Source: Nonomuraea angiospora (GTDB taxonomy: Bacteria; Actinomycetota; Actinomycetes; Streptosporangiales; Streptosporangiaceae). Taken from it: 64,000 nt of DNA. A model generated the notes under the pieces. It made no database searches, had not been told where the DNA came from, and was given only the letters and a program-made list of their open reading frames with translations. The position numbers were made by a program, and so were the translations under genes. Numbering within the stretch: the stretch's first letter is position 1; every line of letters starts with the position of its first letter. The stretch is taken from the NCBI RefSeq assembly GCF_014873145.1, contig NZ_JADBEK010000001.1:3162001-3226000 (forward strand), in the 5' to 3' direction. This document shows positions 37,438 through 59,323 of this stretch, piece after piece.

Positions 37438-37463
37438 GTCTTCGACTACCTGGAGGTGCCGGC

Positions 37464-39412: not shown

Positions 39413-40567
39413 CTACGGCCAGGCCGGTCGAGCGACGTCCAGGGCCCGGACCGCGTCCTCGTCGACCTCCACGCCCAGGCCGGGGCCGGAGGGCACCCGA
39501 GCGGTGCCGTTGCTGATCACAACGTCTGGACCGCGTACGTAAGGCGATCGGACGAACTGGGGGCCGTTGAGGTCGGCCGGGTGAGTGATGCCGAACGCCG
39601 CGAACAGGTGGAGGGAGGCCGCCAGGCCCAGGGCGGAGTCCGTTAGGCCGGAGCCGACGATGCCGATGCCGCTGTCTTCGGCCAGCGAGCAGAGGCGGCG
39701 GGACAGCTGGAGGCCGCCGGTTCGCTGGACCTTGGCCACGGCCAGGTCGAGGGCGCCGAGATGAATGAAGGTGGCCAGGTCGGACGGGTGGACCAGGCTT
39801 TCGTCGAGGGCGATCGGGATCGGGCTCCGGTCGCGCAGCCGGCTCAGGCCGATCGGGTCGTTGGCCCGAAGCGGCTGTTCGAGCAGGCTGACGGCCAGTG
39901 GCTCGATGCGGCGTGCCAGGCGGAGCGCCTGGTCGAGGGTGTAGGCCTGGTTGGCGTCGATCCAGAGCGGCGCGTCGGGCGCGCGGGCGCGGACCGCGGC
40001 CACCCGCTCGGCGTCGTGTTCGGGAGAAGAGCTGCCCACTTTCGTCTTGAACGCCCGATATCCGGCCGCCAGGCCCTCTTCCGTCTCCCTGGCCGCCGAT
40101 TCCGGGTCGGCGCCCGACACGATCCAGGCCAGGGGGATCTCGTCAACCCGGCGTTGGCCCCAGAGCTCGCCGATGGAGACGCCCAGGGCCCGGCCGACGA
40201 GGTCGTGCAGGGCCACGTCGACCGCCGCCTTGGCCAAGGGGGCACCGAGGGTGTAGCCGGGACTGATGGCACGCCCGAACAGGCGGACCGCGCCGTCGAG
40301 GTCCCAGGCCGGGTGGCCGAGCAGGGCCGGGGCCAGGTATCCGCGGATGGTCGAGACGATGCTCTCCGTCGTCTCGTAGGTCCAGGTCGGGGCCGGAGTG
40401 GCTTCTCCCCACCCGGTCAAGCCGTCCGCGCCGACGCGGACCAGGACACGGGCATGCGCGCCGCCCGCGCGGGTGACGGTGCCGCCGGAGATCTTGAAGT
40501 CCCGGAGCGCGGGCAGGTGCAGGACAAAGCATTCGACCGAGTCCACGGTCATTCTCGAGCCGGGCAC
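39413..40567 (-). CDS. Enolase-superfamily enzyme (muconate-lactonising subgroup)
   Basis: 384-aa (beta/alpha)7-beta barrel enzyme. MLE-subgroup residues are present: FKTKVG (KxK, catalytic Lys), the three metal ligands in WIDANQAY, SLLEQPL and ALDESL, and the opposite lysine in VAKVQRTGG. This subgroup includes muconate cycloisomerases, o-succinylbenzoate synthases and dipeptide epimerases, so the reaction is undecided. GTG 40567 is chosen because GAAGGAGGAAA lies directly before it; ATG 40552 is the alternative. It diverges from the GntR/LacI hybrid regulator and probably belongs to its regulon. Confidence 0.88.
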   Translation of the reverse strand: MPGSRMTVDSVECFVLHLPALRDFKISGGTVTRAGGAHARVLVRVGADGLTGWGEATPAPTWTYETTESIVSTIRGYLAPALLGHPAWDLDGAVRLFGRAISPGYTLGAPLAKAAVDVALHDLVGRALGVSIGELWGQRRVDEIPLAWIVSGADPESAARETEEGLAAGYRAFKTKVGSSSPEHDAERVAAVRARAPDAPLWIDANQAYTLDQALRLARRIEPLAVSLLEQPLRANDPIGLSRLRDRSPIPIALDESLVHPSDLATFIHLGALDLAVAKVQRTGGLQLSRRLCSLAEDSGIGIVGSGLTDSALGLAASLHLFAAFGITHPADLNGPQFVRSPYVRGPDVVISNGTARVPSGPGLGVEVDEDAVRALDVARPAWP

Positions 40568-40665
40568 TTTCCTCCTTCAGAAAGGAAGGAATTCATTCCA
40601 TAAAGCCGCACCTCAGAGAGGGTGACAGGCAGGAGGAAATCACGAAATTAACTGTTAAACAACTA

Positions 40666-40694
40666 TTGACCGTGTATTGCGGCTCAGGCATGAT
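40666..40694 (+). promoter_or_regulatory. Promoter of the hybrid regulator (leaderless)
   Basis: TTGACC (40666-40671) and CATGAT (40689-40694) are separated by 17 bp. Transcription would begin about 7 nt later, at the ATG of 40702, so the mRNA is probably leaderless. Confidence 0.55.
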
Positions 40695-40701
40695 TCCGGC
40701 C

Positions 40702-41808
40702 ATGACACCGCCAAACGGTCCGAATTCCTTCCCTCAGGGAATGAAATCGGAAAAGGTCGCGGCCGCGCTGCGGGAGCAGATCGCCGACGAGGGCTGGCCC
40801 GTCGGCGCCCGGCTGCCGACCGAGCCGGAGCTGGCCGCGACCTTCGGCGTCGGGGTCAACACCGTCCGGCGAGCGGTGGGGATCCTGGTGGACGAGGGCG
40901 TCGTGGTGCGGCGGCAGGGTTCGGGCACCTACGTGGTGAGCCGGCCCGCGCCGACCGGCCGCAGGCTCATCGGCGTGCTCGTCCCCTCGACCTCGTACTA
41001 CTACCCGCGGGTCATCGAAGGCATCGAGCAGGCGCTGACCGCGGCCGGCGCCGGAGTCATTCTCGCCAGCTCCGAGAACCAACCCGGCCTGGAGCACGCC
41101 CAGACCCGCAGGCTTCTCGACAGCGGAGCCGAGGGGCTCATCCTCGTGCCCAACCTGAACGTCATGGACGACCCCCAGGCGCACATCGAGGCCCTGCGCA
41201 AACTGCCCGTCCCGTACGTGCTGGTCGAACGCCGTCCGCCGATGCCGGAGCCGGACGACCCGACCTCCTACGTCGTCACCAACCATGTCGGCGGCGTTCA
41301 CACCGCGGTCCGGCACCTGGTCGGACTCGGCCACTCCAGGATCGGTTTCGCCGGGCGGGTCAGAACCGGGAACGCCGACGTCGTCGCCGATGGATTCGAA
41401 CGCGCGGCCCGGGCGTTGGGCGTCGAACGGGTCGCCGAGGCGGTCGTCAGGCGCACGGAGTGGCCGGCCGAGGAACTGTTCGCCTTCGCCCGGGACTGCC
41501 GCGACCACCGGGTGAGCGCCGTCTTCTGCCACGGCGACCGCGACGCCGCGACGCTCGTCGTCCAGGCACGCAGGCTCGGCCTGCGGGTACCGGACGACCT
41601 GGCGCTCGTCACCTACGACGATGACGTCGTCGACCTGATCGACCCTCCGCTCACCGCGGTGGCCCCGCCCAAACCACAGGTCGGAGCGCTGGCCGCACAA
41701 CTGCTCCTGCGCCGCATCGACGACCCCGACCTCCCGGCCCACCGGATCGAACTGCAGCCCCGGCTCGTCATCCGATCCTCCTGCGGCGGGAACCGCACGA
41801 CTCCTTAG
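40702..41808 (+). CDS. GntR-HTH / LacI-type sugar-binding hybrid regulator
   Basis: 368-aa regulator. Residues 12-75 form a GntR winged helix (VAAALREQIADEGWPVGARL, PTEPELAATFGVGVNTVRRAV, QGSGTYVV). Residues 85-360 are a periplasmic-binding-protein-like effector domain (IGVLVPSTSYYYPRVIEGIEQAL, DDLALVTYDDDVVDLIDPPLTAV), the AraR-like architecture used for sugar-responsive repressors. ATG 40702 fits the leaderless promoter; ATG 40690 is possible. It sits between the divergent enolase gene and the importer operon (74 bp downstream), so it likely controls both. Confidence 0.9.
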   Translation: MTPPNGPNSFPQGMKSEKVAAALREQIADEGWPVGARLPTEPELAATFGVGVNTVRRAVGILVDEGVVVRRQGSGTYVVSRPAPTGRRLIGVLVPSTSYYYPRVIEGIEQALTAAGAGVILASSENQPGLEHAQTRRLLDSGAEGLILVPNLNVMDDPQAHIEALRKLPVPYVLVERRPPMPEPDDPTSYVVTNHVGGVHTAVRHLVGLGHSRIGFAGRVRTGNADVVADGFERAARALGVERVAEAVVRRTEWPAEELFAFARDCRDHRVSAVFCHGDRDAATLVVQARRLGLRVPDDLALVTYDDDVVDLIDPPLTAVAPPKPQVGALAAQLLLRRIDDPDLPAHRIELQPRLVIRSSCGGNRTTP

Positions 41809-41882
41809 CCCCCCAGAACGACCGATCACCTTTTCGTCGCCTCCCAGGCAACGCGTCACCCCCCAGGAGAGCAGGTACCCCC

Positions 41883-43205
41883 ATGCCTGAAAGAGAACGT
41901 TCCAGAATCGCCGCGCTCGGGACGGCCCTGACCCTGACCCTGACCACGATCGCGGCCTGCGGCGGAGGTGGCGGCGAAGCGGCCGGCGGCAAGGTCACCC
42001 TGACGCTCGGCTACTACGCCGAAGCCGGTGGCCCCGCGGACGGCACGATGCGCAAGCTGGTCGACCAGTTCACCAAGGCCAACCCCGGCATCGAGGTGAA
42101 GATCGAATCCGCCGACTACGACCAGTTCTACAAGCGCCTGCGCACCCAGCTCGCCGGCGGTCAGGCACCCGACGTGTGGCTGTCCGACGGCGTCCTCGTC
42201 CAGGAGTTCAGCGGCCGCAACAGCCTGCGCGACCTCACCAAGTACGCCTCCGACCTCGACCTCGCCGGCTACTACGGCATCGACATCATCAAGAAGGGCG
42301 ACCCGCAGGGACGCCTGTTCGGCTTCCCGCAGGGCGCCCAGTCCACCGCGCTGTTCTACAACAAGGCGATCTTCGCCAAGGCCGGGGTGGAGCCGCCGAC
42401 CGCGGACTGGACCTACGACGACCTTCTCGCCGCGGCCAAGAAGCTCACCCAGGACACCAACGGCGACGGCAAGACCGACGTCTACGGCTTCCGCGCCTAC
42501 TCGCCCAGCTTCGTCGAGAGCTGGTGGCCGATGGTCAAGGCTTTCGGCGGCGACGTCCTCGCCGACAACGGGAAGATCGCGATCGACAGCCCGCAGAGCC
42601 GCGAGGCCCTCACCTGGATGAACCGGGCGATGTACGAGGAGAAGATCGCCCCCGACCCGGTGACCACCGAGGCCCTGGGCAAGTCCCAGATCCTGTTCCC
42701 GAGCGGCATCGTGGCGATGCAGTTCGGCATCTACGCCCGGATCCAGACCGCGGCCCAGGGCAAGATCGACATGGGGGCCGTGCCGCTGCCGAAGGGGCCG
42801 ACCGGGCAGCGCGGCGACCTCGCCAACATCAACTCCTGGGTGGTCAACCGCGCCTCGTCCGAGCCCGAGGCCGCGGCCGCCTGGAAGTGGATCAAGTTCT
42901 TCGCCGGCGAGGGGCCGCAGGCCGAGTGGATGTCCATCGGCGAGGCCATTCCGATCAACAAGAAGGTCGCGCAGACCCCGGCGTTCCTCAACCCCGCCAC
43001 GCCTCCCACCGATCGCAGGCCCTTCACCGACGCCCTCGCGGACGCCGATGACCTCGGCCTGAACCCGGTGTGGAGCGAGTACACCGCCGCGATCACCAAA
43101 CAGGTCACCGCCGCGCTGTCGAAGCAGACCGGGATCGAGGACGCGCTGAAGATCGCGCAGACCGACGCCCAGGCCGTCGTCGACCGGTTCAAGCCGGCCG
43201 GATGA
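41883..43205 (+). CDS. Sugar ABC transporter substrate-binding lipoprotein (family 1)
   Basis: 440-aa extracellular binding protein. Signal peptide with lipobox IAAC (Cys26), then a Gly-rich linker. Family-1 signatures include LVDQFTKANPGIEVKIESADYDQFYKRLRTQLAGGQAPDVW and the aromatic-rich cleft segments FYNKAIFAKAGVEPPTADWTYDDLL. It binds mono- or oligosaccharides. AGGAGAG precedes the ATG. First gene of the catabolic operon. Confidence 0.93.
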   Translation: MPERERSRIAALGTALTLTLTTIAACGGGGGEAAGGKVTLTLGYYAEAGGPADGTMRKLVDQFTKANPGIEVKIESADYDQFYKRLRTQLAGGQAPDVWLSDGVLVQEFSGRNSLRDLTKYASDLDLAGYYGIDIIKKGDPQGRLFGFPQGAQSTALFYNKAIFAKAGVEPPTADWTYDDLLAAAKKLTQDTNGDGKTDVYGFRAYSPSFVESWWPMVKAFGGDVLADNGKIAIDSPQSREALTWMNRAMYEEKIAPDPVTTEALGKSQILFPSGIVAMQFGIYARIQTAAQGKIDMGAVPLPKGPTGQRGDLANINSWVVNRASSEPEAAAAWKWIKFFAGEGPQAEWMSIGEAIPINKKVAQTPAFLNPATPPTDRRPFTDALADADDLGLNPVWSEYTAAITKQVTAALSKQTGIEDALKIAQTDAQAVVDRFKPAG

Positions 43206-43239
43206 CCCGGCACATCAAGGGACGGGAAGGGGCCGGCAA

Positions 43240-44130
43240 GTGGCGGCCATGACCGGATCCGGAAAGCTCGTCGAGAAGCTGTGGGCGGGCCTGTTCGCCT
43301 CCCCCTACCTGGCCCACCTCGTCCTGCTCACGGCCTGGCCCGTCCTGGCCCTGAGTTACCTCAGCTTCACCGATTACGACACCGTCTCCTCGCCGAACTG
43401 GATCGGCCTGGACAACTACACCAGGCTGCTGAAGGACGAGCACTTCTGGAACAGCCTGCTCAACACGGGCCTGTTCGCCCTCCTCTACGTGCCGCTGCAG
43501 ACGGTCCTGGCGCTCGTTCTGGCCGTCGGCCTCAACCAGCGGTTGAGGTTCATGCCGTTGCTGCGCGGCGCCTATTTCGTCCCGGTCGTATCGTCCTGGG
43601 TGGTCATCGCCTACGTCGCCGACGCGGTGTTCAACCCGCGCACCGGTTCGGCCAACACCGTCCTCGGCTGGTTCGGGGCCGACCCGCAGACCTGGCTCAA
43701 AAGCCCCGCGCTGGTCATCCCGACCCTCGCCCTGGTGGCGGTCTGGAAGGGCGTCGGCTACATGATGGTGCTCTTCCTGGCCGGGTTGCAGTCCATTCCG
43801 AAGGAGCTGTACGAGGCAGCCGAAGTGGACGGCGCCGGGCCCGTCCGCCGCTTCTGGCGGATCACCGTTCCGGCCGTGTCCGGGACGACGTTCCTCGTCC
43901 TGGTGCTGTCGACGATCTCGGTCCTTCAGGCCTTCGAGCAGGTCTACGTCATGACGGGCGGCGGGCCGGGCGATGCCAGCGAGGTGACCGTGCTGTACAT
44001 GTACCGGCAGGGCTTCGAGTTCTTCCAGATGGGCTATGCGGCCGCCGTCGCCTGGGTGCTGTTCGGCATCACCCTCGTCCTCACCCTTTTCCAGCTGTGG
44101 CTCCAGCGGAAGTGGGTGCACTATGCCTAG
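43240..44130 (+). CDS. Sugar ABC transporter permease (MalF/UgpA-type)
   Basis: 296-aa permease with six helices; FASPYLAHLVLLTAWPVLALSYLSF begins the first. The coupling loop is SIPKELYEAAEVDGAGPVRRFWRITVP (EAA motif). GTG 43240 is 9 nt after GGAAGGGG; ATG 43249 is an alternative. It ends 8 bp inside the next permease gene. Confidence 0.93.
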   Translation: MAAMTGSGKLVEKLWAGLFASPYLAHLVLLTAWPVLALSYLSFTDYDTVSSPNWIGLDNYTRLLKDEHFWNSLLNTGLFALLYVPLQTVLALVLAVGLNQRLRFMPLLRGAYFVPVVSSWVVIAYVADAVFNPRTGSANTVLGWFGADPQTWLKSPALVIPTLALVAVWKGVGYMMVLFLAGLQSIPKELYEAAEVDGAGPVRRFWRITVPAVSGTTFLVLVLSTISVLQAFEQVYVMTGGGPGDASEVTVLYMYRQGFEFFQMGYAAAVAWVLFGITLVLTLFQLWLQRKWVHYA

Positions 44131-44968
44131 CCGCGTCCTCAAGCGCGGCGTGCGGCCCGGCCGCCTGCTGGCCTACACGTTCGTCGTCTCCGGCGCCGTG
44201 ATCATGCTGCTGCCGTTCGTGACGTCCCTGTTCAACTCGCTCAAGTCCTACGCCGACTTCATCGCCATCCCGCAGACGCTGCTGCCCGACCCGCCGGTCT
44301 GGTCGAACTACACCGAGGTGTGGGGCCGGGCCCCGTTCGCGACGTACGCGATCAACAGCTTCGTCATCGCGGGACTGGCGACGATCGGGGCCGTGATCAG
44401 CAGCGCGATGGTCGGGCACGCGATGGCCCGGATGCGCCTGCCGCTGCGCAACGCCCTGCTGACCGCCGCGCTCGCCACGCTCATGCTGCCGACGGTGGTG
44501 ACGATCATCCCGACGTTCATCATGTTCCGCGAGTTCGGCTGGCTGGACACCTTTTTGCCGCTGATCGTCCCGTTCTGGCTCGCCACCCCCTTCGGGATCT
44601 TCCTGATGCGGCAGGCGTTCCTGGCCATCCCCAAGGACTTCATGGAGGCCGCCACCCTCGACGGCGCCGGCCTCTGGACGGTCTTCGCCCGGATCCACCT
44701 GCCGCTGGTCAAGCCGTCCCTGGCGACGCTCGCCGTCTTCACCTTCATGACGTCCTGGGGCGCGGTCCTCGAACCGACGGTCTACCTGACCTCCCCGGAG
44801 AAACTGACCCTCCCCATCGGGGTGATGGGCCTGCGCGGCCAGTTCGTCGGCAACGACCAACTGGTGACGGCCGGGGCCCTGATGTCGCTCGTCCCGATCC
44901 TCGTGGTCTTCATCGTCGCCCAGCGCTACTTCGTGCGCGGCGCAGCGGCCTCCGGCCTCAAGGGCTGA
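44123..44968 (+). CDS. Sugar ABC transporter permease (MalG/UgpE-type)
   Basis: 281-aa permease, overlapping the previous gene by 8 bp. Six helices, with the EAA loop IPKDFMEAATLDGAGLWTVFARIHLP. No cognate ATPase gene follows, as usual for actinomycete sugar importers that share a global ATPase of the MsiK type encoded elsewhere. Confidence 0.93.
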   Translation: MPSRVLKRGVRPGRLLAYTFVVSGAVIMLLPFVTSLFNSLKSYADFIAIPQTLLPDPPVWSNYTEVWGRAPFATYAINSFVIAGLATIGAVISSAMVGHAMARMRLPLRNALLTAALATLMLPTVVTIIPTFIMFREFGWLDTFLPLIVPFWLATPFGIFLMRQAFLAIPKDFMEAATLDGAGLWTVFARIHLPLVKPSLATLAVFTFMTSWGAVLEPTVYLTSPEKLTLPIGVMGLRGQFVGNDQLVTAGALMSLVPILVVFIVAQRYFVRGAAASGLKG

Positions 44969-44994
44969 GCCCGCCCAAGCCTAAGGAGTTGTTT

Positions 44995-46014
44995 GTGCCT
45001 ACCATCGAGCCCTCGTTCCGGCTCGGCCTCATCGGTACCGGCATCGTCGGCGACCTGCATCTGCGGGCCGCGCGGAACCTGCCCCAGGTCACGGTCGGCG
45101 CGGTTTGCGACATCCGCGCCGACGCCGCGCGGAGCATGGCCGAGGAGGCGGGCGCCACCGCCTACACCTCGCACCGGGAGATGCTCGCCCGTGAGCGGCT
45201 GGACGGCGTGATCATCACCTCGCCGCACAACCTGCACGCCGAGATGACCGTGGACGCGGCCGGCGCGGGTGTGCACGTCCTGGTGGAGAAGCCGATGGCC
45301 ACCACGGTCGCCGACTGCACCGCGATGATCGAAGCCTGCGCGGCCGCCGGGGTGACGCTCGCCGTCGGGCACGTGCTGCGCTTCAGCGCCCACGCCCACC
45401 AGGCCGCGGCGCTCCTGGCCTCCGGTGAGCTCGGCCCGGTCCACGCGATCAACCACCGCAGAACGGCCCATTACGAGCGCGGCTCACGCCCCGACTGGTT
45501 CTTCGACCCGGTCGTGGCCGGCGGCGGCATCGTGATGAACGTCGGCACCCATGGCCTCGACCGCATCCAGTGGCTCGGCGCCGGCGAGGTCGAGTCGGTC
45601 CACGCCCACCTGTGGAAGCGGGGCGGCCTGGACATCGAGACCGACGCGATCGGCGTCGTCGGCCTGTCGAGCGGCGTCAAGGCGAGCTTCCTGTTCACCA
45701 GCGCCGGCCTGCCCTTCACCGACGAGACGGTCGTCATCTGCGAACGGGGCTCCCTGCGCTGGTCGGCCACCGAGGGCACCTTCGTCAGCGAAGGCGGTAC
45801 CGAGCGGCAGATCGCGCCGGGCGGGGACCATCCGGTGGCGGCCTTCACCGAGCAGCTCGCCGACTTCGCCGACGCCTGCACGACGGGCCGGCCGCCGCTG
45901 GTCGGGGGCGACTACGGCCGGTCCGTCGTGGCCGCCGTCCTGGCGATCTACGAGTCGGCCGGCCACGGTCGCCCCGAAACGGTCGGCTCCGCCTTGCTGA
46001 GGAGCACGGCATGA
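44995..46014 (+). CDS. Gfo/Idh/MocA-family oxidoreductase
   Basis: 339-aa NAD(P)-dependent sugar dehydrogenase. Rossmann motif LGLIGTGIVGDLHLRAARN, the family motif VEKPMA, and GGGIVMNVGTHGLDRIQWL with the catalytic-type histidine. GTG 44995 has AAGGAG upstream. It probably oxidises a sugar, aminosugar or inositol derivative brought in by the importer. It overlaps the isomerase start by 4 bp. Confidence 0.9.
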   Translation: MPTIEPSFRLGLIGTGIVGDLHLRAARNLPQVTVGAVCDIRADAARSMAEEAGATAYTSHREMLARERLDGVIITSPHNLHAEMTVDAAGAGVHVLVEKPMATTVADCTAMIEACAAAGVTLAVGHVLRFSAHAHQAAALLASGELGPVHAINHRRTAHYERGSRPDWFFDPVVAGGGIVMNVGTHGLDRIQWLGAGEVESVHAHLWKRGGLDIETDAIGVVGLSSGVKASFLFTSAGLPFTDETVVICERGSLRWSATEGTFVSEGGTERQIAPGGDHPVAAFTEQLADFADACTTGRPPLVGGDYGRSVVAAVLAIYESAGHGRPETVGSALLRSTA

Positions 46015-46787
46015 GCGGGCGCCTGGCCTTCAGCACCCTCGGCTGCCCCGGCGCACCGGTCGAGCAGGTGATCGAGCTGGCACGCGAGCACGGCTGCGAA
46101 GGCATCGAGCTGCGCTGCGCCACCGGCGAGATCCTTCCGCCCGCGGCCGCCGACGCCGAGGCCCGGACGGTCGGGGCCCGGTTCGCGGAAGCGGGCATCG
46201 AGATCGTCTGCCTCGCCTCCTACGTGCAGGTCGGGATGCCGGGCGAGGAGGCCGCGCTCGCCCGGCATCTGGAGCTCGCGCGGCTGGCCGGCGCGTCGTT
46301 CGTACGGGTCTTCGGAGGGGACCCGGACGATCCCGGCGTGGCGGCCCACGCCGTCACGACCCTGCGAGCCGGGGCCGAGAGCGCCGCACGGTCCGGTGTG
46401 CGGATCCTGCTCGAGACCCATGACGCCTTCCTCACCGGACGCGCCGTCGCCGGAGTGCTCGACCAGGTCGGCTCCCCGCACGTCGGAGCCCTCTGGGACG
46501 TGGTCAACCCGTGGCGCGCGGGCGAGCCCCCGGCCGTCACGGCCGAGGCGCTGCGTCCCTGGCTGGCCCACGTCCAGGTCAAGGACGTCGCCTCCGTCAC
46601 CGATCTCGCGCCCGTGCTGCCGGGCGCCGGAGCCGTGCCCCTCGACGCGTTCGCCGGGGAACTGGCCCGTCTCGGCTATGGCGGCTGGACCTCCCTGGAG
46701 TGGGAGGCCGCCTGGTACCCGCAGGCCGCGCCCCTGTATGAGGCCCTGTCCGCCTTCCGCTCGCTGACGTTGGAGCACATCCGATGA
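46011..46787 (+). CDS. Sugar phosphate isomerase/epimerase (xylose-isomerase-like TIM barrel)
   Basis: 258-aa AP-endonuclease-2-like barrel: LAFSTLGCPGAPVEQVIELAREHGCEGIELR, LLETHDAF and ALWDVVNPW with metal-binding Glu/Asp, AHVQVKDV, and final WTSLEWE. Members act as sugar isomerases, hydroxypyruvate isomerases or keto-sugar epimerases. Overlaps genes on both sides by 4 bp (ATGA), showing tight coupling with the oxidoreductase and SDR. Confidence 0.88.
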   Translation: MSGRLAFSTLGCPGAPVEQVIELAREHGCEGIELRCATGEILPPAAADAEARTVGARFAEAGIEIVCLASYVQVGMPGEEAALARHLELARLAGASFVRVFGGDPDDPGVAAHAVTTLRAGAESAARSGVRILLETHDAFLTGRAVAGVLDQVGSPHVGALWDVVNPWRAGEPPAVTAEALRPWLAHVQVKDVASVTDLAPVLPGAGAVPLDAFAGELARLGYGGWTSLEWEAAWYPQAAPLYEALSAFRSLTLEHIR

Positions 46788-47803
46788 TCGAGAACCTGAA
46801 CGATCTGCGCGAAGCGCTCAGCGCCCCCTCCGAGGCCGTGGCCGACGGCCTCGCCCGCACCGAAGGCGACCTGATGCTGCTGGGCGCCGGAGGCAAGATC
46901 GGCCCCGGCCTCGCGGTGATGGCCCGCCGCGCCCTCGACGCCCGCGGTTCCACCGCCCGGGTCATCGCCGTCGCACGCACCCTCTCCGGCGACGACGAGA
47001 CGTTCATGAAGCAGGCCGGAGTGGAGATCGTCCGGGCCGACCTGCTCGACCACGCCGACCTGGCCCGCCTGCCCGAGGCCGAGCGCGTCGTCTACCTGGC
47101 CGGACGCAAGTTCGGCACGCACGGCTCCGAACCCGGCACCTGGGCGCTCAACACCTACCTGCCGGGACGCGTCATGCGGCGCTTCCCCGCATCGCGCGTC
47201 GTCGCCTTCTCCACCGGAAATGTCTACCCCCTGGTACCGGTGACCAGCGGCGGAGCCGACGAGACCACCCCTGCGAGCCCTGTCGGCGAATACGCGCAGT
47301 CCTGCCTGGGCCGCGAACGCGTCATCGAGCACTTCTCGCGCGCCCAGGGCACCCCGGCCGCCATCGTCCGCCTGAACTACGCCGTCGAGATGCGCTACGG
47401 CGTCCTGCTCGAACTGGCGCAGGCCGTCCTCCGGGGCGAGCCGATCGACCTGGCGACGGGCAGCGTCAACGTCATCTGGCAGGGCGACGTCAACGCCATG
47501 ACGCTGAGCCTCTTCGAGCACTGCGCCACCCCGCCGCTGATCCTCAACATGGCCGGACCCGAGACCGCGTCGGTCCGCTGGCTGGCCGGGCAGCTGGCCG
47601 CGCGCCTCGGGGTCACGCCGCGCTTCACCGGTGGTGAGGAGCCCACGGCCCTGCTCTCCAACGCCGCACGCTCGCACGCCCTGTTCGGCTACCCGACGGT
47701 TCCGCTGATGCGCCTCCTCGACGAGACCGCCCGCTGGGTGGCCGAGGGGGGAGCGGTGCACGGCAAGGCCACCCACTTCCAAGAACGAGAAGGACGCTTC
47801 TGA
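46784..47803 (+). CDS. Atypical NAD-dependent epimerase (SDR)
   Basis: 339-aa extended SDR: LMLLGAGGKIGPGLAVMARRAL (NAD motif), VVYLAGRKFGT, VAFSTGNVYPLVP. At the catalytic site it reads GEYAQSCLGRERVIEHF, so the YxxxK lysine is cysteine. The Tyr is kept. Either the enzyme is catalytically altered or another lysine serves. Homologues in sugar operons are annotated as epimerases or uronate-type dehydrogenases. Its stop shares one base with the next start. Confidence 0.85.
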   Translation: MIENLNDLREALSAPSEAVADGLARTEGDLMLLGAGGKIGPGLAVMARRALDARGSTARVIAVARTLSGDDETFMKQAGVEIVRADLLDHADLARLPEAERVVYLAGRKFGTHGSEPGTWALNTYLPGRVMRRFPASRVVAFSTGNVYPLVPVTSGGADETTPASPVGEYAQSCLGRERVIEHFSRAQGTPAAIVRLNYAVEMRYGVLLELAQAVLRGEPIDLATGSVNVIWQGDVNAMTLSLFEHCATPPLILNMAGPETASVRWLAGQLAARLGVTPRFTGGEEPTALLSNAARSHALFGYPTVPLMRLLDETARWVAEGGAVHGKATHFQEREGRF

Positions 47804-48873: not shown

Positions 48874-51800
48874 AGAAGATCACCGCCTTACTGGCGGCGC
48901 TGATCGTGGCCTCGGCGCCGCTTCAGGCGATGCCCTCCCCCGCCGCGGCCGCCGCCGACGGGCAGAACCTGGTGCCGAACCCCGGGTTCGAGACGACCAC
49001 GCCCTCAACCGAAGCCTGCCCGGCGCCCGCCTGGTGCACACCGTGGCAGAGCTCCACCTACACGATCGACACCGCGGTGGCCGCCGAGGGCGAACGCTCG
49101 ATGCGGATCGACGGCTCGCCGGCCAAGAAGATCGGCGGCTTCGTCACCGTCCCGCTCAACCAGACGACCACCCCCATCGTGCACATCTCGGCCAAGGTGA
49201 AACTGGATGCGATCACCCTGGCCGACTACACCGACTTCCCCGGCGCGGCCCGCGTCTCGCTCAGCTTCAGCTACGTCGACAGCGCGGGGAGCACCGTCTA
49301 CACAGGCTCCGGCCTGCTCGGGGGCATCCTCACCGGCAGCACGGACTGGACCACCGTGCAGGGCACCTTCAAGGTGCCGCCGCTGACCACCCGGGTCCAG
49401 ATCATCAACACCGTGCAGACCTCCACCGGCACCATGTGGGTGGACGACGTGCGGGTGACACCTGGATCGGCCTGGCTCTACCCCGAACGCGCCACCAAGA
49501 AGGCCGCGCCGGGCAGCGACGCGACGTTCCTCGTCACGGTCACCAACCGGCGGGCCGTGGCCGACACGCTGCGACTCGCGGTGGACCGCGGCACGGTGAG
49601 CCCGGCGGTGACCGCGCCGCTGAAGCCGGGCGAGTCCACCCTGGCCACGGTGACGGTTCCCGGCGCGGGCTCGGCCGTACTGACCGCCACGCCCAGTGGT
49701 GACGCGGCATCCGCGCGGCGGGCCACGCTCACGGTGGAGGAGGCCACCGCCAAAGGCGGCGAGCCTCGGGTCTACGCGACGCCCGCGGAGCTGGAAACCC
49801 TGCGCAAGCGCATTTCGGGGCAGCCGTGGGCGGCCAAGGCCTTCGACACCACCGTCAAGGCGGAGGCCGATGCCTGGCTGGGCAGGCCGCTGGACAAGAC
49901 GGTCTTCCACGGCGGCTGGAGCGGCAACTTCAAATGCCCCGGCACCAACACCATGCTGACCTTCGACTACGACAGCCCCACGAGCCACCGGTGCCCGCTC
50001 GACGGCAAGACCTACAGCGGCGAGCCGTACGACAGCGCATGGGTGGAGATCTGGCACAACAACGCCGCGCAGGGCGCCTCCGATCTGGCGCTCGCCTACC
50101 GGGTGACAGGCGGCGAGCAGTACGCGGCCAAAGCGCGCGACATCCTGCTCTACTACGCCGATCGGTTCCTGGCGGTGCCGCTCAACCCGCTCTACGGGCG
50201 CATCCATTACCAGTCGCTGGACGAGGCGGTCGCGGCCATCGGGCTGATCGACGCCTACGACCTGATCCGCGACGGCCTCACCGAGGCCGAGCGGGTGAAC
50301 ATCGAGGGCAACCTGCTGCGCCCGCTGGCCGAGCTGCTGATCTCCAGCCCGATGGCGACCTCCAACTTCCAGGCGTGGACGGCCGCGGCGGTGCACGGGG
50401 CCGGCGCGGCGATCGACGACGCCGGACTGCGCGATACCGCGCTGAAGGACACCGAGTTCCTGCTGGACAAGGCGATCGTGAGCGACGGCTGGTGGTGGGA
50501 GGGCTCGGCCAGCTACCACCTGTACGCGCTCCAGGCGCTCACCCAGGTCGCCATCTCGGCGCGGGAGAAGGACTACCCGCACGATCCGCGCTTCAAGTCG
50601 ATGTACACCACGCTGCTGCCGTACCTGTACCCGGACCAGACCGTACCCGCGGCCGGTGACGGCGGCACCTGGGGACGGAGGTTCGGCCCCAACTTCACGA
50701 TGTTCGCCGAATGGGCCTATGCCACCTACGCCGACCCGGACTTCGCCGCCGGGCTCGGGCTGGCCTACCACAATCTCGGCCAGCCGCGGGGCGACCGGTG
50801 GGCGCTGCGGTACGGCGCCGACGAGATCCCGAAGAGCTCGGGGGTACGGCAGCGCAGCACGACCTTCCGCGGCCTGGGCGAGACCGTGCTGCGCGGCGGC
50901 GAGCCGGCCAACCTCATCCCCAACGGGGACTTCACGGAGGCGGCGCTGGAGGATGCGGGCAAGCCGGCCTCCTGGGCGCTGACCGGGACCTGGAAGAAGG
51001 GCGCCGTGACGGGCCGGGCGACCCAGACCTTCCCGGTGGACGGCACTCGCCTGTCACACCTGCGGCTGTCGGTCCTGGGCCGTGGAGCGGTCACGCTGAC
51101 CTTCCTCGACGGCAAGGGCAGGAAGATCAGCGCGACCGAAGGGGAGACGGAGCTCCAGGTGCCGGTCAAGGCGCGTGCCGTACGGCTGGCCATCGACGGC
51201 GGCTTCGAGCGGCTCGACCTGTGGCCGGCCGACCTGGCCCGGGACGGCGGCTTCGAGGACGGCGGCAAGGCCTGGGCCCGCGAGGGCCGCACGGCGATCT
51301 CGCCGCTCGCCTACCGCGGCGGCTCGGCGGCGACGGCCAGGCAAGGGCGCTGGAGCAGCGACATCCCGGTCACCGGCGGCCTCGTCGGCACCGTCGAGCT
51401 GACGGCACGCGTCCAGGGGACCGGCCGGATCGAGCTGTCGTTCGTGAACAAGGACGGCACGACCACCGAGCCCGTCTCCACGGCCTTCCTGGGCACCTGG
51501 AAGGCGGTCGCGGCGCGCGGCGCGGTTCCGCGTGAGGCGGTCGCGGCACGGGTGGCGCTCGTCTCGGACAGGGGCGTGGGCTTCTTCGACGACGTCGCCC
51601 TGCTGTACGGCTCGGCGGTGGACCCCTTCCAGGCCGACGCGATCCGGATGGACCACGGCATCCCGGGCGGCAGCCATGGTCACGCCGACAAGCTCCACAT
51701 CGACGTGACCGGCGGCGGGCTGCAGTCGACCGACCTCGGGATGGTCTACGGCTCCGACAACGCCGACCTGACCAACAACTGGTACCGCGAGACCGTCTCG

Positions 51801-52736
51801 CACAACACGGTCGTCGTGGACGGGCGGAGCCAGGACCGGGCCATGCGCGGCTCGCTGAACTTCTTCGGCACCACACCCGGGCTGCGGGTGGCCGACGCCG
51901 GGGCCAAGGACGGGGACGTGGCCATCCGCCGTGCGGACCTGATGACCGACCGTTACACGCTCGACGTGTTCGACGCCTCGGGAAGCACCGCGCACCGCTA
52001 CGACCAGTCGTGGCACGGGCAGGGAACGCTGGAGGTCGGCGGGCCCGCCATGACGCCGCCGCCCTGCGGCGACTGCGTGCTGGACCCGGCCGACACCGAC
52101 TTCGGCTACCACCGGCTCAAGCGGGTCGCCGAGGGCACCGCGGCGGACGGGCGGTGGAAGGCGCAGTGGACCTCCGACACGGGGGTGCTCTCGCTGCGGT
52201 CGCTGGAGCCGGTCTCGACCGGAGTCCTGCACACCAGCGGGCCGGGCGAGGCCACCACCGGCCGGCCCATTCCGTTCCTGCTGGCCAGGCGGGAGGGGGC
52301 GGCGAAGACGCGGTTCACCACGCTGATCGAGACCCGCTCGCCGGCTGACCGGCCGGCCGTGAGCGACGGCCGGCGGATCGCCGACGGGCACGTCCAGGTC
52401 GACCTGGCCGACGGTGTCCGCGACGACGTGCTCTTCGACTCCGGCTACGCGCTGCTCAGACGGGCCGCGAACGGTTCACCGGTCAGTGTGGACCTGATGC
52501 GCCGCGCCGCGGTCTCCGTGGACGGCGTCGACTGGGTCAAGGTCTCGCGGCCGATCGAGCGGGCGTCGGTGGCCTACGCCGGGTCCGAGCTGCGGCTGAC
52601 GGTGCCGCGCGGAGAGCCCGGACGGTATGAGATTTCGGTTCACGCGCCGGGCGTACGCGATGTCACCCTCAACACGCGCTCCGTTGAATTCGCCCGGTCC
52701 GGTGACATGATCACCGTCGCCGTCACCGTCTCCTAG
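48870..52736 (+). CDS. Secreted multi-domain heparinase II/III-like polysaccharide lyase
   Basis: 1288 aa. Signal peptide (residues 1-30, ending AAAAADGQ). A CBM4/9-like beta-sandwich at about 33-190 (NLVPNPGFE...TMWVDDVRVTPG). A linker, then an (alpha/alpha) toroid from about 298 (PRVYATPAELETLRKRI, SNFQAWTAAAVHGAGAAI, WWWEGSASYHLYALQALTQ). A second carbohydrate-binding-like segment at about 680-910 (NLIPNGDFTEAA). The heparinase C-terminal sandwich from about 920 has SHGHADKLHIDV and WYRETVSHNTVVVDGRSQ, where catalytic His/Tyr residues lie. It cleaves uronate-containing polysaccharide by beta-elimination outside the cell. Unusually it is translationally coupled to cytosolic catabolic genes. 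Confidence 0.88.
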   Translation: MKKITALLAALIVASAPLQAMPSPAAAAADGQNLVPNPGFETTTPSTEACPAPAWCTPWQSSTYTIDTAVAAEGERSMRIDGSPAKKIGGFVTVPLNQTTTPIVHISAKVKLDAITLADYTDFPGAARVSLSFSYVDSAGSTVYTGSGLLGGILTGSTDWTTVQGTFKVPPLTTRVQIINTVQTSTGTMWVDDVRVTPGSAWLYPERATKKAAPGSDATFLVTVTNRRAVADTLRLAVDRGTVSPAVTAPLKPGESTLATVTVPGAGSAVLTATPSGDAASARRATLTVEEATAKGGEPRVYATPAELETLRKRISGQPWAAKAFDTTVKAEADAWLGRPLDKTVFHGGWSGNFKCPGTNTMLTFDYDSPTSHRCPLDGKTYSGEPYDSAWVEIWHNNAAQGASDLALAYRVTGGEQYAAKARDILLYYADRFLAVPLNPLYGRIHYQSLDEAVAAIGLIDAYDLIRDGLTEAERVNIEGNLLRPLAELLISSPMATSNFQAWTAAAVHGAGAAIDDAGLRDTALKDTEFLLDKAIVSDGWWWEGSASYHLYALQALTQVAISAREKDYPHDPRFKSMYTTLLPYLYPDQTVPAAGDGGTWGRRFGPNFTMFAEWAYATYADPDFAAGLGLAYHNLGQPRGDRWALRYGADEIPKSSGVRQRSTTFRGLGETVLRGGEPANLIPNGDFTEAALEDAGKPASWALTGTWKKGAVTGRATQTFPVDGTRLSHLRLSVLGRGAVTLTFLDGKGRKISATEGETELQVPVKARAVRLAIDGGFERLDLWPADLARDGGFEDGGKAWAREGRTAISPLAYRGGSAATARQGRWSSDIPVTGGLVGTVELTARVQGTGRIELSFVNKDGTTTEPVSTAFLGTWKAVAARGAVPREAVAARVALVSDRGVGFFDDVALLYGSAVDPFQADAIRMDHGIPGGSHGHADKLHIDVTGGGLQSTDLGMVYGSDNADLTNNWYRETVSHNTVVVDGRSQDRAMRGSLNFFGTTPGLRVADAGAKDGDVAIRRADLMTDRYTLDVFDASGSTAHRYDQSWHGQGTLEVGGPAMTPPPCGDCVLDPADTDFGYHRLKRVAEGTAADGRWKAQWTSDTGVLSLRSLEPVSTGVLHTSGPGEATTGRPIPFLLARREGAAKTRFTTLIETRSPADRPAVSDGRRIADGHVQVDLADGVRDDVLFDSGYALLRRAANGSPVSVDLMRRAAVSVDGVDWVKVSRPIERASVAYAGSELRLTVPRGEPGRYEISVHAPGVRDVTLNTRSVEFARSGDMITVAVTVS

Positions 52737-52745
52737 GAGCTCGCC

Positions 52746-53348
52746 ATGGCAGCGCACCTGCGGCCCTACCATCCTGCCGACCTGGCCGGGATCTACCGGG
52801 TGTGCCTGCTCGTCGACGGGGCGGGCCGGGCGGAGGCACCCCGCTTCCACGCCCCCGACCTGCCCGGTCACCTCTACGCGGGGCCGTACGCGGTCGCCGA
52901 TCCCGGCCTGGCCTTCGTCGTCGCCGACGAGCACGGGATCGGCGGCTACATCGTCGCCACCGCGTGCACCGAGGAGTTCCTCGGGTGGGCCCGCGAGCAC
53001 TGGTGGCCGGTGCTGCGCGAGCAGTACCCCCGCCATCGCGACCCCGGCGACGGCACCCTCGACCACCGGTACGTCGATGTGATCCACGACTACCCGGACG
53101 CGCCCCGGCCCTGGTTCGCCAGCCACCCGGCCCAGGCGCACATCAAGCTCACCGCGCGGCTGCAGGGCAGCGGCTGGGGCCACCGCCTCATGTCAGCCCT
53201 GATCGCGTCGTTGCGGGAACGGCAGGTGCCCGGCCTGCACCTCGGCGTCGCCGAGACCAACGGCCGGGCCCTGGCCTTCTACGCCGCGCTCGGCTTCACC
53301 GAAGCCGAGCGTCACCCCTGGGGACGCACGCTCGTCCTCGATCTCTGA
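52746..53348 (+). CDS. GNAT acetyltransferase resembling the O-GlcNAcase HAT-like domain
   Basis: 200-aa single GNAT domain. It begins LRPYHPADLAGIYRVCLLVDGAG and has the long insert YPRHRDPGDGTLDHRYVDVIHDYP. The acetyl-CoA region HIKLTARLQGSGWGHRLMSAL precedes LGVAETNGRALAFYAALGF. The insert and the PWFASHPAQAHIKL segment resemble actinomycete acetyltransferases related to the C-terminal domain of human O-GlcNAcase; this rests on memory of the family. Placement between two secreted lyases and beside GH20 suggests acetylation of an amino-sugar product. No signal peptide, so cytosolic. Confidence 0.8.
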   Translation: MAAHLRPYHPADLAGIYRVCLLVDGAGRAEAPRFHAPDLPGHLYAGPYAVADPGLAFVVADEHGIGGYIVATACTEEFLGWAREHWWPVLREQYPRHRDPGDGTLDHRYVDVIHDYPDAPRPWFASHPAQAHIKLTARLQGSGWGHRLMSALIASLRERQVPGLHLGVAETNGRALAFYAALGFTEAERHPWGRTLVLDL

Positions 53349-53362
53349 ACAGGAGCCAGCTC

Positions 53363-54610
53363 ATGAGAGGAAAAGTCCTCACCGCACTCGTCTCCTTATT
53401 CGCCCTCGTCCCCGGCACCGCCCTGGCCGCACCCCGCGTCAACACCTTCGAACGGCCCGAGCGGGGCAGCGCCTACACCCTGAGCCAGTGGGCGGCCGAC
53501 GGGTGGAGCGCCCCCTGGCAGGAGGGCATGGACACCCGTACCTGGATCGACGGTTACAACTTCAACCACTCGGGCGGCAAGTCGCTGCGCGTCTTCTACC
53601 CCAAGGGCAAGATCGGACCGGCCGACTCCGGCGCCCAGGCGCCGCTCGCGCTGAGCCCGGCCCGCGAGTACTACCTGTCCTACTGGGCGCGCTACAGCAG
53701 CGACTTCAGCTGGGGCACCACGGAGTTCGCCGGGAAACTGGGACTCGGCCTGGCGGGCGGCAAGGCGTGCTCGGGAGGCCAGGTCTGCGACGGCTACAAC
53801 GGCTTCAGCTCGCGTATGATCTGGCGGCGCGACAACGGCCAAGCGGCGATTTACTACTACCACATGGGTCACGCCGGGCAGTACGGCGACTACGCCGTGC
53901 TCAAACGCAACGGCGCCGACATCCTCTATCCGCGCGGGGAATGGTTCAACATCGTCCAGCGCCTCAAGGTCAACACCGTCACCAACGGTAACGCCAACCC
54001 CGACGGCGAGATCGAGATCTTCTACAACGGCGTCTCCGCCGCCACCGTCACCGGGCTGCGCTTCGTGCGCAACGGCGACCTGATCGACAGGGCCTACTTC
54101 TCCTCCTTCTTCGGCGGGGCGGACACCACTTTCGCACCTGCCAACGACTCCTGGATCTGGTACGACGACCTCAAGGTGTCGACCAACCGGGCCGACATCT
54201 GCGAGCTGGCGCCCGGCGGCTGCCACACCCGGACCTTCCAGGCCGAGAGCTACAGCGCGATGAAGGGCGTGATCACCGAGCCCACGCCCGACACGGGTGG
54301 CGGGCAGCACGTCGGCTCCTTCGACAGCACCGACTGGATCGCCTTCGGCGGGGTCACCATCCCGTCGGCCGGTCGTTACCTGGTGGAGTACCGCGTCGCG
54401 TCGCCGCACGACGGCGGGGTGATCTCGCTGGACATCAACGAAGGCGCCACGCCGCTCGGAAACGTCGACTTGCCGAACACCGGGAGCTGGTCGAGCTACC
54501 GGACGATCTCCCGTGAAGTCGACCTACCCGCCGGGACACACCAGTTCGGCGTCTACGCGGCGACGGGCGGCTTCAACCTCAACTGGTGGAAGATCACCCG
54601 GCTCTACTGA
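53363..54610 (+). CDS. Secreted PL14-like polysaccharide lyase with CBM6
   Basis: 415 aa. Signal peptide ending ALAAPRV. A beta-jelly-roll lyase domain (about 22-275) has REYYLSYWARYSSDFSWG, WFNIVQRLKVNTV and DRAYFSSFFGG followed by DSWIWYDDLKVS, resembling alginate/glucuronan lyases of family 14. C-terminal CBM6 (about 288-415) has FQAESYSAMKGV, STDWIAFGGVTIPSAGRY and FNLNWWKITRLY. CAGGAG precedes ATG 53363. Together with the heparinase-like enzyme it would depolymerise an acidic polysaccharide. Confidence 0.85.
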   Translation: MRGKVLTALVSLFALVPGTALAAPRVNTFERPERGSAYTLSQWAADGWSAPWQEGMDTRTWIDGYNFNHSGGKSLRVFYPKGKIGPADSGAQAPLALSPAREYYLSYWARYSSDFSWGTTEFAGKLGLGLAGGKACSGGQVCDGYNGFSSRMIWRRDNGQAAIYYYHMGHAGQYGDYAVLKRNGADILYPRGEWFNIVQRLKVNTVTNGNANPDGEIEIFYNGVSAATVTGLRFVRNGDLIDRAYFSSFFGGADTTFAPANDSWIWYDDLKVSTNRADICELAPGGCHTRTFQAESYSAMKGVITEPTPDTGGGQHVGSFDSTDWIAFGGVTIPSAGRYLVEYRVASPHDGGVISLDINEGATPLGNVDLPNTGSWSSYRTISREVDLPAGTHQFGVYAATGGFNLNWWKITRLY

Positions 54611-54629
54611 ACCGCCACGAGGTGGCACT

Positions 54630-54661
54630 CGAACAGGCCGTGATGGTGCGCGGCCTGTTCG
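54630..54661 (+). terminator. Hairpin between the PL14-like and GH20 genes
   Basis: Perfect 11-bp stem CGAACAGGCCG / CGGCCTGTTCG, 10-nt loop, 20 nt past the lyase stop and 84 nt before the GH20 start. No U-tract. It probably ends the main operon or attenuates into GH20. Confidence 0.6.
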
Positions 54662-54744
54662 GGGCCGCAACACGCCCTGCCGGGGAGGCCGGCGTCGTCC
54701 GCGCACTGCCGTCGATCCCTTCCGAGACCTGTGAGGAAAGCCGC

Positions 54745-56784: not shown

Positions 56785-56800
56785 ATGTTTGCGCAAACTT
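56785..56800. promoter_or_regulatory. LacI-type operator 1
   Basis: ATGTTTGCGCAAACTT contains the perfect 12-bp palindrome GTTTGCGCAAAC and differs by one base from the symmetric consensus ATGTTTGCGCAAACAT. It adjoins the ATG of the GH2 remnant frame. Confidence 0.8.
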
Positions 56801-56904: not shown

Positions 56905-56920
56905 ATGTTTGCGGAAACAT
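56905..56920. promoter_or_regulatory. LacI-type operator 2 (lacI-like promoter)
   Basis: ATGTTTGCGGAAACAT, one mismatch from the consensus, lies 71 bp upstream of the LacI-family start; autoregulation is expected. It is 120 bp from operator 1, a spacing that would permit looping by a tetramer. Confidence 0.8.
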
Positions 56921-56990
56921 CAACCATGGCTATCACCCTCCAGAGATGCCGCTGTACTCTGTCGGCGACGACGAAGGGAGACGACCCGGC

Positions 56991-58028: not shown

Positions 58029-58045
58029 GCCCGCCGCCACGGCCA

Positions 58046-58075
58046 TTGACAGGCCGATCAAGTTAGCGCAAACAT
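58046..58075 (+). promoter_or_regulatory. Promoter and LacI-type operator 3 of the secreted glycosidase
   Basis: A TTGACA -35 at 58046-58051 is followed by AAGTTAGCGCAAACAT (58060-58075), 14 of 16 bases identical to the consensus operator. The operator covers the spacer and the probable -10 (AAACAT at 58070), so the LacI protein would block polymerase directly. Confidence 0.75.
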
Positions 58076-58162
58076 GACTTCGCGGATGTGCCACCGACAC
58101 TGTGGCCAGGTTCCTCCGCCCCTCTCCCCCGCACTTCTCCGAGCCCCAGGGAGCAAGGCCCC

Positions 58163-59323
58163 ATGCCGCTTCGCCGACTATCGATCATCGCGCTGACCGC
58201 CGTCCTCGCCGCCTCGGCCACCACGCACACCGCCGCCGCCGCTGAAGGCAGGCCTGTGAAACTTGCGTACGGCGCCCTGGGCGCCAACTTCAACCAGAAC
58301 CTCGACGCGCTGGACTACCGGGAGCTTCGCGAGGCCAAGGCCCGATGGGTCCGCGGGTTCTTCCCGATGCCCGCCACCGACCAGGGCGATCCCGCCGCGC
58401 ACTTCGCGATCCGCACCATCACCCAGGCAGCCGGGCGAGGCCACGACACCATCCTCAGCCTGAAGTTCCCCTACGACCGGACCTCCTTCCCCGCGCCCGG
58501 CAGCGCCCGGATGGCCGCCGAACTGGCCCGCCTGGACCGGGTCCTGCCCACTGTGCTGAACAAGGTGGACATCATCACGATCGGCAACGAGCCGTTCATC
58601 GAGAGCCTGCCCGCCGAGCGCGACGCGCGGCTCAACGAGTTCTACGAGACCGTCGCCCGACACGTGATCGACTACAGGCGCCAGCACTGCGGCGCGGACT
58701 GCCGCACCGTGCTCTACATGGGCGCGCTGAACCGGCTCGACCTGCCCGACCGCCGCACGCCGGCGGCCGAGCGCTGGATGACCTTCGTCCGCGAGACGCC
58801 GGAGATCGAGGGCGTCGACATCCACCCGCACGTGCCCTCGCCCCAGGCCGTCCAGCCGTTCCTCGACTACATCCTGCCGCGGATGCGCCCGCAACAGACG
58901 TTCCTCGTCACCGAGTTCTCCCTCGTGCATCACTGGAGACAGCACCTGCGCGACACCGTCGCCACCAAGTTCGCACAGCAGTACGGCTTCGCCCCGGACA
59001 CCCAGGTCTGGCAGGTGATCAAGGCCGCCATCAACAAGCCGTTCAGCGAGCGGAAGTGGGACGACTTCCTGACCAGCAGCCCGTGGTTCACCAGTCAGGC
59101 CGGCTTCCTGCGCGACCAGATGAAGCTGTACCGGAGCACCGGGCGGCTGGCGGTCGCCACCTACGCCTTCAAGCAGGACGATGCGATGGTCGAGGACTTC
59201 GGCCCTGACAAAACCCCGTGGCTGCTCAACAGCGTGTACGCCCCCTACACCGTGCAGCCCCGCGGCGCCATGTCGGGGCGCGGCTACTGGCTCGACGACT
59301 TCCGCGCGCTGCAACAGCGCTGA
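58163..59323 (+). CDS. Secreted clan GH-A-like glycoside hydrolase, family unassigned
   Basis: 386 aa. Signal peptide MPLRRLSIIALTAVLAASAT ending near THTAAAAEG. The mature part looks like a TIM barrel with two plausible catalytic glutamates: Glu143 in IITIGNEPF (Asn-Glu, acid/base of clan A) and Glu251 in FLVTEFSL (nucleophile). Other barrel segments are WVRGFFPM, VDIHPHVP and ATYAFKQDD. I cannot place it in a numbered family. It is controlled by operator 3, so it serves the same substrate as the LacI regulon. AGGGAGCAAGG precedes ATG 58163. Confidence 0.75.
   Translation: MPLRRLSIIALTAVLAASATTHTAAAAEGRPVKLAYGALGANFNQNLDALDYRELREAKARWVRGFFPMPATDQGDPAAHFAIRTITQAAGRGHDTILSLKFPYDRTSFPAPGSARMAAELARLDRVLPTVLNKVDIITIGNEPFIESLPAERDARLNEFYETVARHVIDYRRQHCGADCRTVLYMGALNRLDLPDRRTPAAERWMTFVRETPEIEGVDIHPHVPSPQAVQPFLDYILPRMRPQQTFLVTEFSLVHHWRQHLRDTVATKFAQQYGFAPDTQVWQVIKAAINKPFSERKWDDFLTSSPWFTSQAGFLRDQMKLYRSTGRLAVATYAFKQDDAMVEDFGPDKTPWLLNSVYAPYTVQPRGAMSGRGYWLDDFRALQQR

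Follow-up and report, generated by a model that had tools for sequence, protein, structure and literature searches.

A conserved twelve-gene unit with two predicted polysaccharide lyases in Nonomuraea angiospora and its possible link to a glucuronan-type polyuronate

We analysed a 64,000-nucleotide stretch of the Nonomuraea angiospora genome (contig NZ_JADBEK010000001.1, positions 3,162,001 to 3,226,000; hereafter the window), in which an earlier, sequence-only reading had described one large carbohydrate locus under two sugar-responsive regulators. The region in question, 39,413-59,323, comprises three units and not one locus: unit A (genes g1-g12), unit B (a lone GH20 gene, g13) and unit C (a LacI regulator, g14, and a probably secreted protein, g15). 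We regard it as plausible, without being confident of it, that unit A is an inducible operon, with g1 divergent, for a glucuronan-type polyuronate, meaning poly-beta-1,4-glucuronate or glucuronate-rich blocks within a matrix, the fungal wall for example. We computed the gene content, the conservation of gene order, the operator-like sites, and the folds and catalytic residues of the lyases, with gene models taken from reading frames and codon-position GC, and identifications from Pfam and NCBIfam together with sequence comparison against the PDB. By these matches every gene class named in the sequence-only reading is present. The genome is a single contig of 13.09 Mb, the GC content of the window is 67-75%, and a tRNA search of the window found none.

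The limits of unit A emerge from its relatives. In N. soli, g1-g12 recur in the same order and on the same strands, with proteins 67-90% identical, so that the search for conserved gene order, proposed earlier as a check, came out in favour of these twelve genes; 3' of g12 in that genome lie AlkZ-like and SecA genes. Nocardia aurea, on a contig that begins inside g8, retains g8-g12; its g10 is split over two reading frames, and a Mutator-type transposase gene adjoins g12. In Umezawaea endophytica, g2, g6, g8, g9, g10 and g12 are present in rearranged order; the importer there is more distant, its permeases being 31-36% identical, and a DNA ligase gene lies 3' of g10. The Umezawaea stretch held no match to g7 or to the GNAT gene g11, and neither the Umezawaea nor the Nocardia whole genome held a g1 match at E<=1e-60. 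No ortholog of the GH20, g14 or g15 stands beside the lyase genes of these three relatives, the stretches inspected reaching 8.1 kb beyond g12 in N. soli, 2.1 kb beyond it in Nocardia aurea and 10 kb beyond g10 in Umezawaea; the sole g14 matches in those stretches are g2 homologs. Within the window, the overlaps of 1-4 bp reported between 44,995 and 52,736 are real at g6-g7, g7-g8, g8-g9 and g9-g10 (spacings of -4, -4, -1 and -4 bp), and the genes on either side are nearly as tight (g4-g5 -8, g10-g11 +9, g11-g12 +14 bp). The gap from g12 to g13 is 134 bp and contains a strong hairpin, and that from g13 to g14 is 635 bp. For the segment 54608-54690 the predicted folding energy is -46.3 kcal/mol (z -2.89; 2 of 200 shuffles were equally good), and the hairpin is likely the end of the operon. 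Thus, because of the overlaps, the synteny and the single operator region, lyases and intracellular catabolism appear to share one transcription unit, g2-g12, which supports the claim that extracellular depolymerisation and intracellular catabolism are made together. What did not survive is the extension of that locus to g13, g14 and g15, which are set off by gaps and a hairpin and lack orthologs beside the lyases elsewhere.

Table 1. Positions in the window of the units, genes and sites discussed
Feature	Position	Strand	Description
Unit A	39,413-54,610		twelve genes, g1-g12; GntR-type palindrome in the g1/g2 promoter
g1	39413..40567	-	enolase superfamily (MR_MLE, MLE-subgroup-like); MR_MLE_C 185.6 bits
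GntR operator-like palindrome GGAAGGAATTCATTCC	40584..40599	.	between g1 and g2; 1 mismatch to GGAATGAATTCATTCC
Promoter of g2-g12	40666..40694	+	sigma-70-like, TTGACC-17-CATGAT; read by eye
g2	40702..41808 (start may be 40741)	+	regulator, GntR DNA-binding plus sugar-binding (Peripla_BP_3) domain; Pfam, synteny
Second, weaker operator-like site	40717..40732	.	4 mismatches; downstream of promoter
g3	41883..43205	+	sugar ABC solute-binding protein; SBP_bac_1 137 bits; lipobox-like start (by eye)
g4	43249..44130	+	ABC permease; BPD_transp_1
g5	44123..44968	+	ABC permease; BPD_transp_1
g6	44995..46014	+	Gfo/Idh/MocA sugar oxidoreductase; GFO_IDH_MocA 103 bits
g7	46011..46787	+	AP_endonuc_2 TIM barrel (sugar phosphate isomerase/epimerase-like); Pfam 104 bits
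g8	46784..47803	+	extended short-chain dehydrogenase/reductase (SDR), YxxxC replacing YxxxK; Epimerase 33 bits
g9	47803..48873	+	DHDPS/NAL-superfamily class I aldolase-type enzyme
g10	48870..52736	+	1288 aa; CBM4_9, PL17-type toroid, inserted beta domains, heparinase-C sandwich
g11	52746..53348	+	GNAT like O-GlcNAcase HAT domain; 3zj0 98 bits, Protein O-GlcNAcase chains 52 bits
g12	53363..54610	+	PL14-type lyase plus CBM6; Polysacc_lyase_14 82.9 bits, CBM_6 101 bits
Hairpin after g12	54622..54668	+	stem core CGAACAGGCC/GGCCTGTTCG; no T-run
Unit B (g13)			lone GH20, 134 bp after g12; no signal-like start (by eye)
Unit C	56991-59323		LacI regulator (g14) and g15, with three LacI boxes of its own

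The substrate assignment turns on the two lyases. The larger, g10, had been read as a secreted heparinase II/III-like lyase; a lyase-type protein with a heparinase-C domain it is, but both sequence and fold place it nearest to the PL17 alginate lyases (best single-sequence match 77.7 bits, profile 185 bits; PL17 toroid plus antiparallel beta-sheet), and Pfam calls it an alginate-lyase/heparinase-C protein. Judged from its signal-like start, read by eye, it is probably secreted. Residues N499, Y549 and H938, invariant in 25/25 rows, correspond to the catalytic Asn201, Tyr258 and sandwich His in Alg17c numbering. Next to that catalytic Asn, the His202 of PL17 is replaced by Phe (F500) in all 21 members of the g10 family and by Trp in 4/4 distant relatives; there are 20 close relatives, of which one alignment used 12 and another all 20. 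The comparison puts g10 in a rare family set apart by Phe at the PL17 active-site His. Precisely this change, engineered as H208F in the PL17 enzyme Smlt2602, created exolytic glucuronan activity (PMC4765187).

The second lyase, g12, was correctly recognised as a PL14-like enzyme with a CBM6: it scores 82.9 bits against PF21294, where the cut-off is 27, and keeps the Lys and Tyr that are altered in the 6kcv entry, the catalytic pair of Aly36B. Its signal-like start, also read by eye, suggests that it is probably secreted. Among solved structures it scores 59.5 bits with Aly36B, which we take from its name to be a PL36 enzyme, 41.7 bits with the alginate lyase 5gmt and 13.5 bits (E 0.35) with vAL-1. 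Close relatives of g12 (67-80%) are found in Cohnella, Paenibacillus and actinomycetes, and we know of no characterised member among them. A chitin-binding PF02839 domain occurs on 9 of the 120 g12 relatives listed, which would fit fungal walls; the walls of Mucorales hold polyglucuronate and chitosan. The same listing includes a 433-aa protein, P0171, given with both PL14 and GntR domains, which may be a true fusion or an artefact of assembly. For g10 and g12 alike, the solved structures closest to the lyase domain are named alginate lyases, so the substrate might be alginate or another mannuronate polymer; g12 would then be an alginate lyase and g10 a PL17-type exolytic oligoalginate lyase of the ordinary kind. 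We think this improbable. The genera hosting g10 relatives are mainly soil-dwelling, not brown-algal, and none of the 21 family members has the PL17 His202. With the equivalent change, Smlt2602 kept only about 30% of its alginate and polymannuronate (poly-ManA) activity (PMC4765187). The 5gmt alginate lyase, for its part, is a PL14 enzyme (PMC8145301).

Similar care is needed with the aminosugar. Of the earlier proposal of a polysaccharide containing both uronate and aminosugar, the uronate part is supported, and the evidence on the aminosugar part is divided. Five sister loci (L045, L046, L047, L048 and L051) carry GntR, importer, Gfo, AP2, GH20, SDR, DHDPS and a convergent MR_MLE gene, with the GH20 between g7 and g8 and importer proteins 57-70% identical to g3-g5; a sixth, L044, is the same without the GH20, and g10, g11 and g12 have no match in any of the six. 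Because the sister loci carry g1-g9 with a GH20 and without g10-g12, g1-g9 forms a module joined to different polysaccharide enzymes. In L051, a GH18 chitinase gene lies about 4.5 kb behind g1. The best solved relatives of g11 are 3zj0 and 4bmh, followed by chains called Protein O-GlcNAcase, so its earlier description as an O-GlcNAcase-HAT-like acetyltransferase was apt. From this perspective the polymer could alternate uronate and N-acetylhexosamine, as a glycosaminoglycan-like or microbial exopolysaccharide, with the lyases releasing unsaturated uronyl-hexosamine fragments and the GH20 and the GNAT processing their hexosamine. The GH20-bearing sister loci with their similar importers, the GH18 gene, the resemblance of g11 and the chitin-binding domains on g12 relatives all speak for this, as does the one GH88/GH105-type gene in the window genome. 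The idea is nevertheless unlikely in our judgement. The window GH20, which is cytosolic as had been stated if the absence of a signal-like start is taken at face value, stands apart from the conserved unit and from the operator of that unit. As an ortholog of the sister-locus GH20s it was rejected: it is 39.7-42.1% identical to them in one comparison and 46% in another, and 51-61% identical to another GH20 group, found in 43/54 Nonomuraea genomes (the second copy of its own genome included). Moreover, PF07470, which we take to cover GH88/GH105 (the unsaturated glucuronyl hydrolases), has no match in N. soli, in Nocardia aurea or in the two sister-locus genomes searched (G031 and G052), one in the window genome, 7.7 Mb away, and three in Umezawaea, whose stretch in turn has no match to the GNAT. 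The usual uronate-hexosamine disaccharide route would be disfavoured because N. soli has no GH88/GH105 match.

The regulatory sites follow the same division into units. At <=3 mismatches, GGAATGAATTCATTCC has one match in 64 kb, at 40584, where 0.04 would be expected. At <=4 mismatches, 29 sites were counted over the nine loci with g1 or g2. All but one (28) fall no more than 160 bp from where g1 or g2 starts, a zone that makes up 2.2% of the DNA. In 20 first-order random versions of these loci the mean was 0.75 sites and the maximum 2. The count of 29 is not independent of the consensus, because the consensus was read from the same loci. The position of the sites and their absence elsewhere are the better argument: at this threshold none occurs in eleven other g9-bearing loci (nine genome loci and the plasmid loci L058 and L061), nor in the Nocardia aurea locus, whose g2 end is missing. 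Second operator-like sites beside g2 are found also in N. soli (L002), L044, L046, L048 and L051, and a similar promoter pair, again by eye and with a spacing of 17 or 18, in L002, L046 and L051. The g1 gene is divergent from g2 in the window and convergent behind g9 in the sister loci, with operator-like sites upstream of it in both layouts; because such sites precede g1 even at the other end of the operon, we take it to be co-regulated with the g2 operon. The three LacI boxes of the window (ATGTTTGCGCAAACAT, <=3 mismatches), at 56785, 56905 and 58060, precede g14 and g15 and no other gene; they recur beside g15 in two other genomes (G020 and G028) whose GH20 matches lie elsewhere. The notion of two regulators over one regulon is therefore wrong, since GntR and LacI mark two separate site sets. 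A single 20-kb locus under both was rejected, with GntR-type sites only at g1/g2, LacI boxes only before g14/g15, and neither before the GH20.

As to how unit A might work, the proposed scheme begins outside the cell, where g12, anchored to its target by the CBM6, would cut the chain internally, and g10 would then take unsaturated uronate units singly from the chain ends. The product would enter through the CUT1-type importer g3-g5 with a shared ATPase; no ABC ATPase gene is found among g1-g15. Inside, g6, g7, g8 and perhaps g1 would convert 4-deoxy-5-ketouronate to a 3-deoxy-2-keto acid, from which g9 would release pyruvate without a kinase, and the locus encodes none. The order of the steps from g6 to g9 is conjectural, as are the roles of g1 and g11. 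The regulator g2, released by a sugar ligand, would open the promoter flanked by its palindromes and so control both g1 and g2-g12. In g9, Lys180, Tyr152 and Thr58-Thr59 are kept in 31/31 sequences (30 of the 120 g9 relatives listed were aligned), giving the Schiff-base Lys, Tyr, Thr-Thr carboxylate site and TIM barrel of the DHDPS/NAL class I aldolases, and the protein folds as DHDPS/HOGA. In g8, the Tyr-x-x-x-Lys of classical extended SDRs is absent, with YxxxC in 27/28 sequences (18/18 genome copies, window included, and 9/10 plasmid copies; the Rhodococcus copy has Val). Eight aligned sequences, window included, keep the E/D/H/E residues of g7, which we take to be of metal-binding type, and eight likewise keep the K-x-K, D, E, D and K positions of g1, to which we presumptively give their enolase-superfamily roles (L054, a 28% match, was left out); the best solved relatives of g1 are chloromuconate cycloisomerases.

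A different use of g6 and g7 is conceivable, as a C3-oxidation/beta-elimination pair that splits unsaturated uronyl or hexosaminyl disaccharides inside the cell without GH88 or any hydrolase. A Gfo/Idh enzyme and a "sugar phosphate isomerase" do so in levoglucosan and in phlorizin/puerarin breakdown (PMC7676230, PMC10628242), and records from Mesobacillus, Aquisphaera and Nitratireductor show both families in the vicinity of g8-g9. We would give this little weight. Such a pathway calls for a Gfo/Idh oxidoreductase with an AP_endonuc_2 eliminase and a hydratase; one Gfo/Idh and a single AP_endonuc_2 gene are present in the locus, against two of the latter in the known pathways, although LgdB2 was able to take over in part from LgdB1. 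In the Umezawaea stretch g6 is present and g7 has no match, and C3 specificity is indicated by no result here.

On balance, three observations favour a polyglucuronate degraded to monomers: F500 as a family signature, the pairing with a PL14-type lyase, and the lack of any GH88/GH105 match in N. soli. Several points weigh against it. CUT1 importers usually take oligosaccharides. The g11 GNAT and the sister-locus GH20s point to hexosamine. PF07470 has one match in the window genome, which also leaves room for a hexosamine, and three in Umezawaea. The nearest solved relative of g12 is the alginate lyase Aly36B and no glucuronan lyase, the vAL-1 match reaching only E 0.35. In g10, no Tyr aligns at the Alg17c Tyr450 column, Y960 being aligned to Tyr446 instead. 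We infer the glucuronan lyase activity of g10 from F500 only, and a single residue, studied in another enzyme, is slender ground for naming a substrate; H208F itself retained some alginate activity. Trp, the residue of the four distant g10 relatives, gave Smlt2602 little activity on polyglucuronate (poly-GlcA) (PMC4765187). A bolder proposal, which we consider rather doubtful, is that the g10 family are natural exolytic glucuronan lyases with the engineered Phe as their signature, feeding a kinase-free pathway around a widespread, uncharacterised sugar-acid splitting core, g8-g9, with g1-g9 plugged into different front ends (two lyases, or a GH20). If true, soil actinomycetes would have a natural polyglucuronate system, a laboratory mutation would come to predict the substrate of a lyase family, and attention would be drawn to g8-g9 as a metabolic unit of two genes with a wide distribution.

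The g8-g9 pair does extend well beyond the window. No more than 1 kb separates the two genes in 14/15 genome loci taken and in 17 of the 19 plasmid records that have g9 (the remaining two are not among the 20 of 23 g8 matches listed). Relatives of g9 occur in 50 of 148 genomes near the window genome versus 2 of 396 sampled across the phylum, its own included in both. The partners vary, with Gfo, AP2, MR_MLE and MFS, TTT or ABC transporters in the ten plasmid records examined, and we read the pair as a general sugar-acid unit. The pair is seen across several bacterial phyla (window 46784-48873, L043, L049, L050, L052-L054, L056-L063 and L065-L067), with YxxxC in all of these loci but L067. A paralogous pair in the same genome (G000:C1:4349137) stands beside Gfo, DegT and hydantoinase A/B genes, and the SDR also matches haloarchaeal plasmids without g9 among the matches listed. 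The loci L060, L063, L064 and L065 carry a GNAT family of 274-286 aa. In Aquisphaera, Sulfitobacter and Tistrella it stands between the SDR and DHDPS genes or near them, and on a haloarchaeal plasmid the SDR is 5 kb away from it. Kinship of this double GNAT, also beside the Halomontanus SDR, with g11 was rejected (the best BLASTP match had E 2.7). In unit C, g15 encodes 386 aa with a signal-like start and no Pfam match at E<=0.5; it is present in 11/54 Nonomuraea genomes (own included) and not in N. soli. Elsewhere in the window, 37119-38630 encodes a fusion of uroporphyrinogen-III synthase with a winged-helix DNA-binding domain (NCBIfam PRK07239).

Among known systems, bacterial alginate and pectin catabolism runs through 4-deoxy-5-ketouronate and 2-keto-3-deoxygluconate, and it shares with g1-g12 the lyases, import, reductase-type enzymes and a pyruvate-forming aldolase. 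Unit A differs in having neither a kinase nor a KDPG aldolase, in its DHDPS-class aldolase, in an SDR without the usual Lys, and in its types of regulator and importer. The oxidative uronate pathway of Agrobacterium, through Udh, a lactone cycloisomerase and a keto-deoxyglucarate dehydratase, has the same set of SDR, enolase-superfamily and DHDPS-class enzymes; however, g8 matched no chain named uronate dehydrogenase, and g1 scores better with muconate cycloisomerases than with 4ggb, presumably the lactone cycloisomerase. PL14 lyases and Aly36B share with g12 the catalytic Lys and Tyr and the family PF21294, but g12 has a CBM6 fused. The PL17 exolytic oligoalginate lyases (Alg17c, Smlt2602, AlgL17) resemble g10 in the two-part fold, the catalytic Asn and Tyr and the HGHxDKL histidines, whereas g10 has Phe for His202, no clear Tyr450 counterpart, a CBM4_9 in front and extra inserted beta domains. 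Smlt2602 H208F agrees with g10 in having Phe at that position beside the catalytic Asn, made in the laboratory there, natural and invariant (21/21) in the g10 family.

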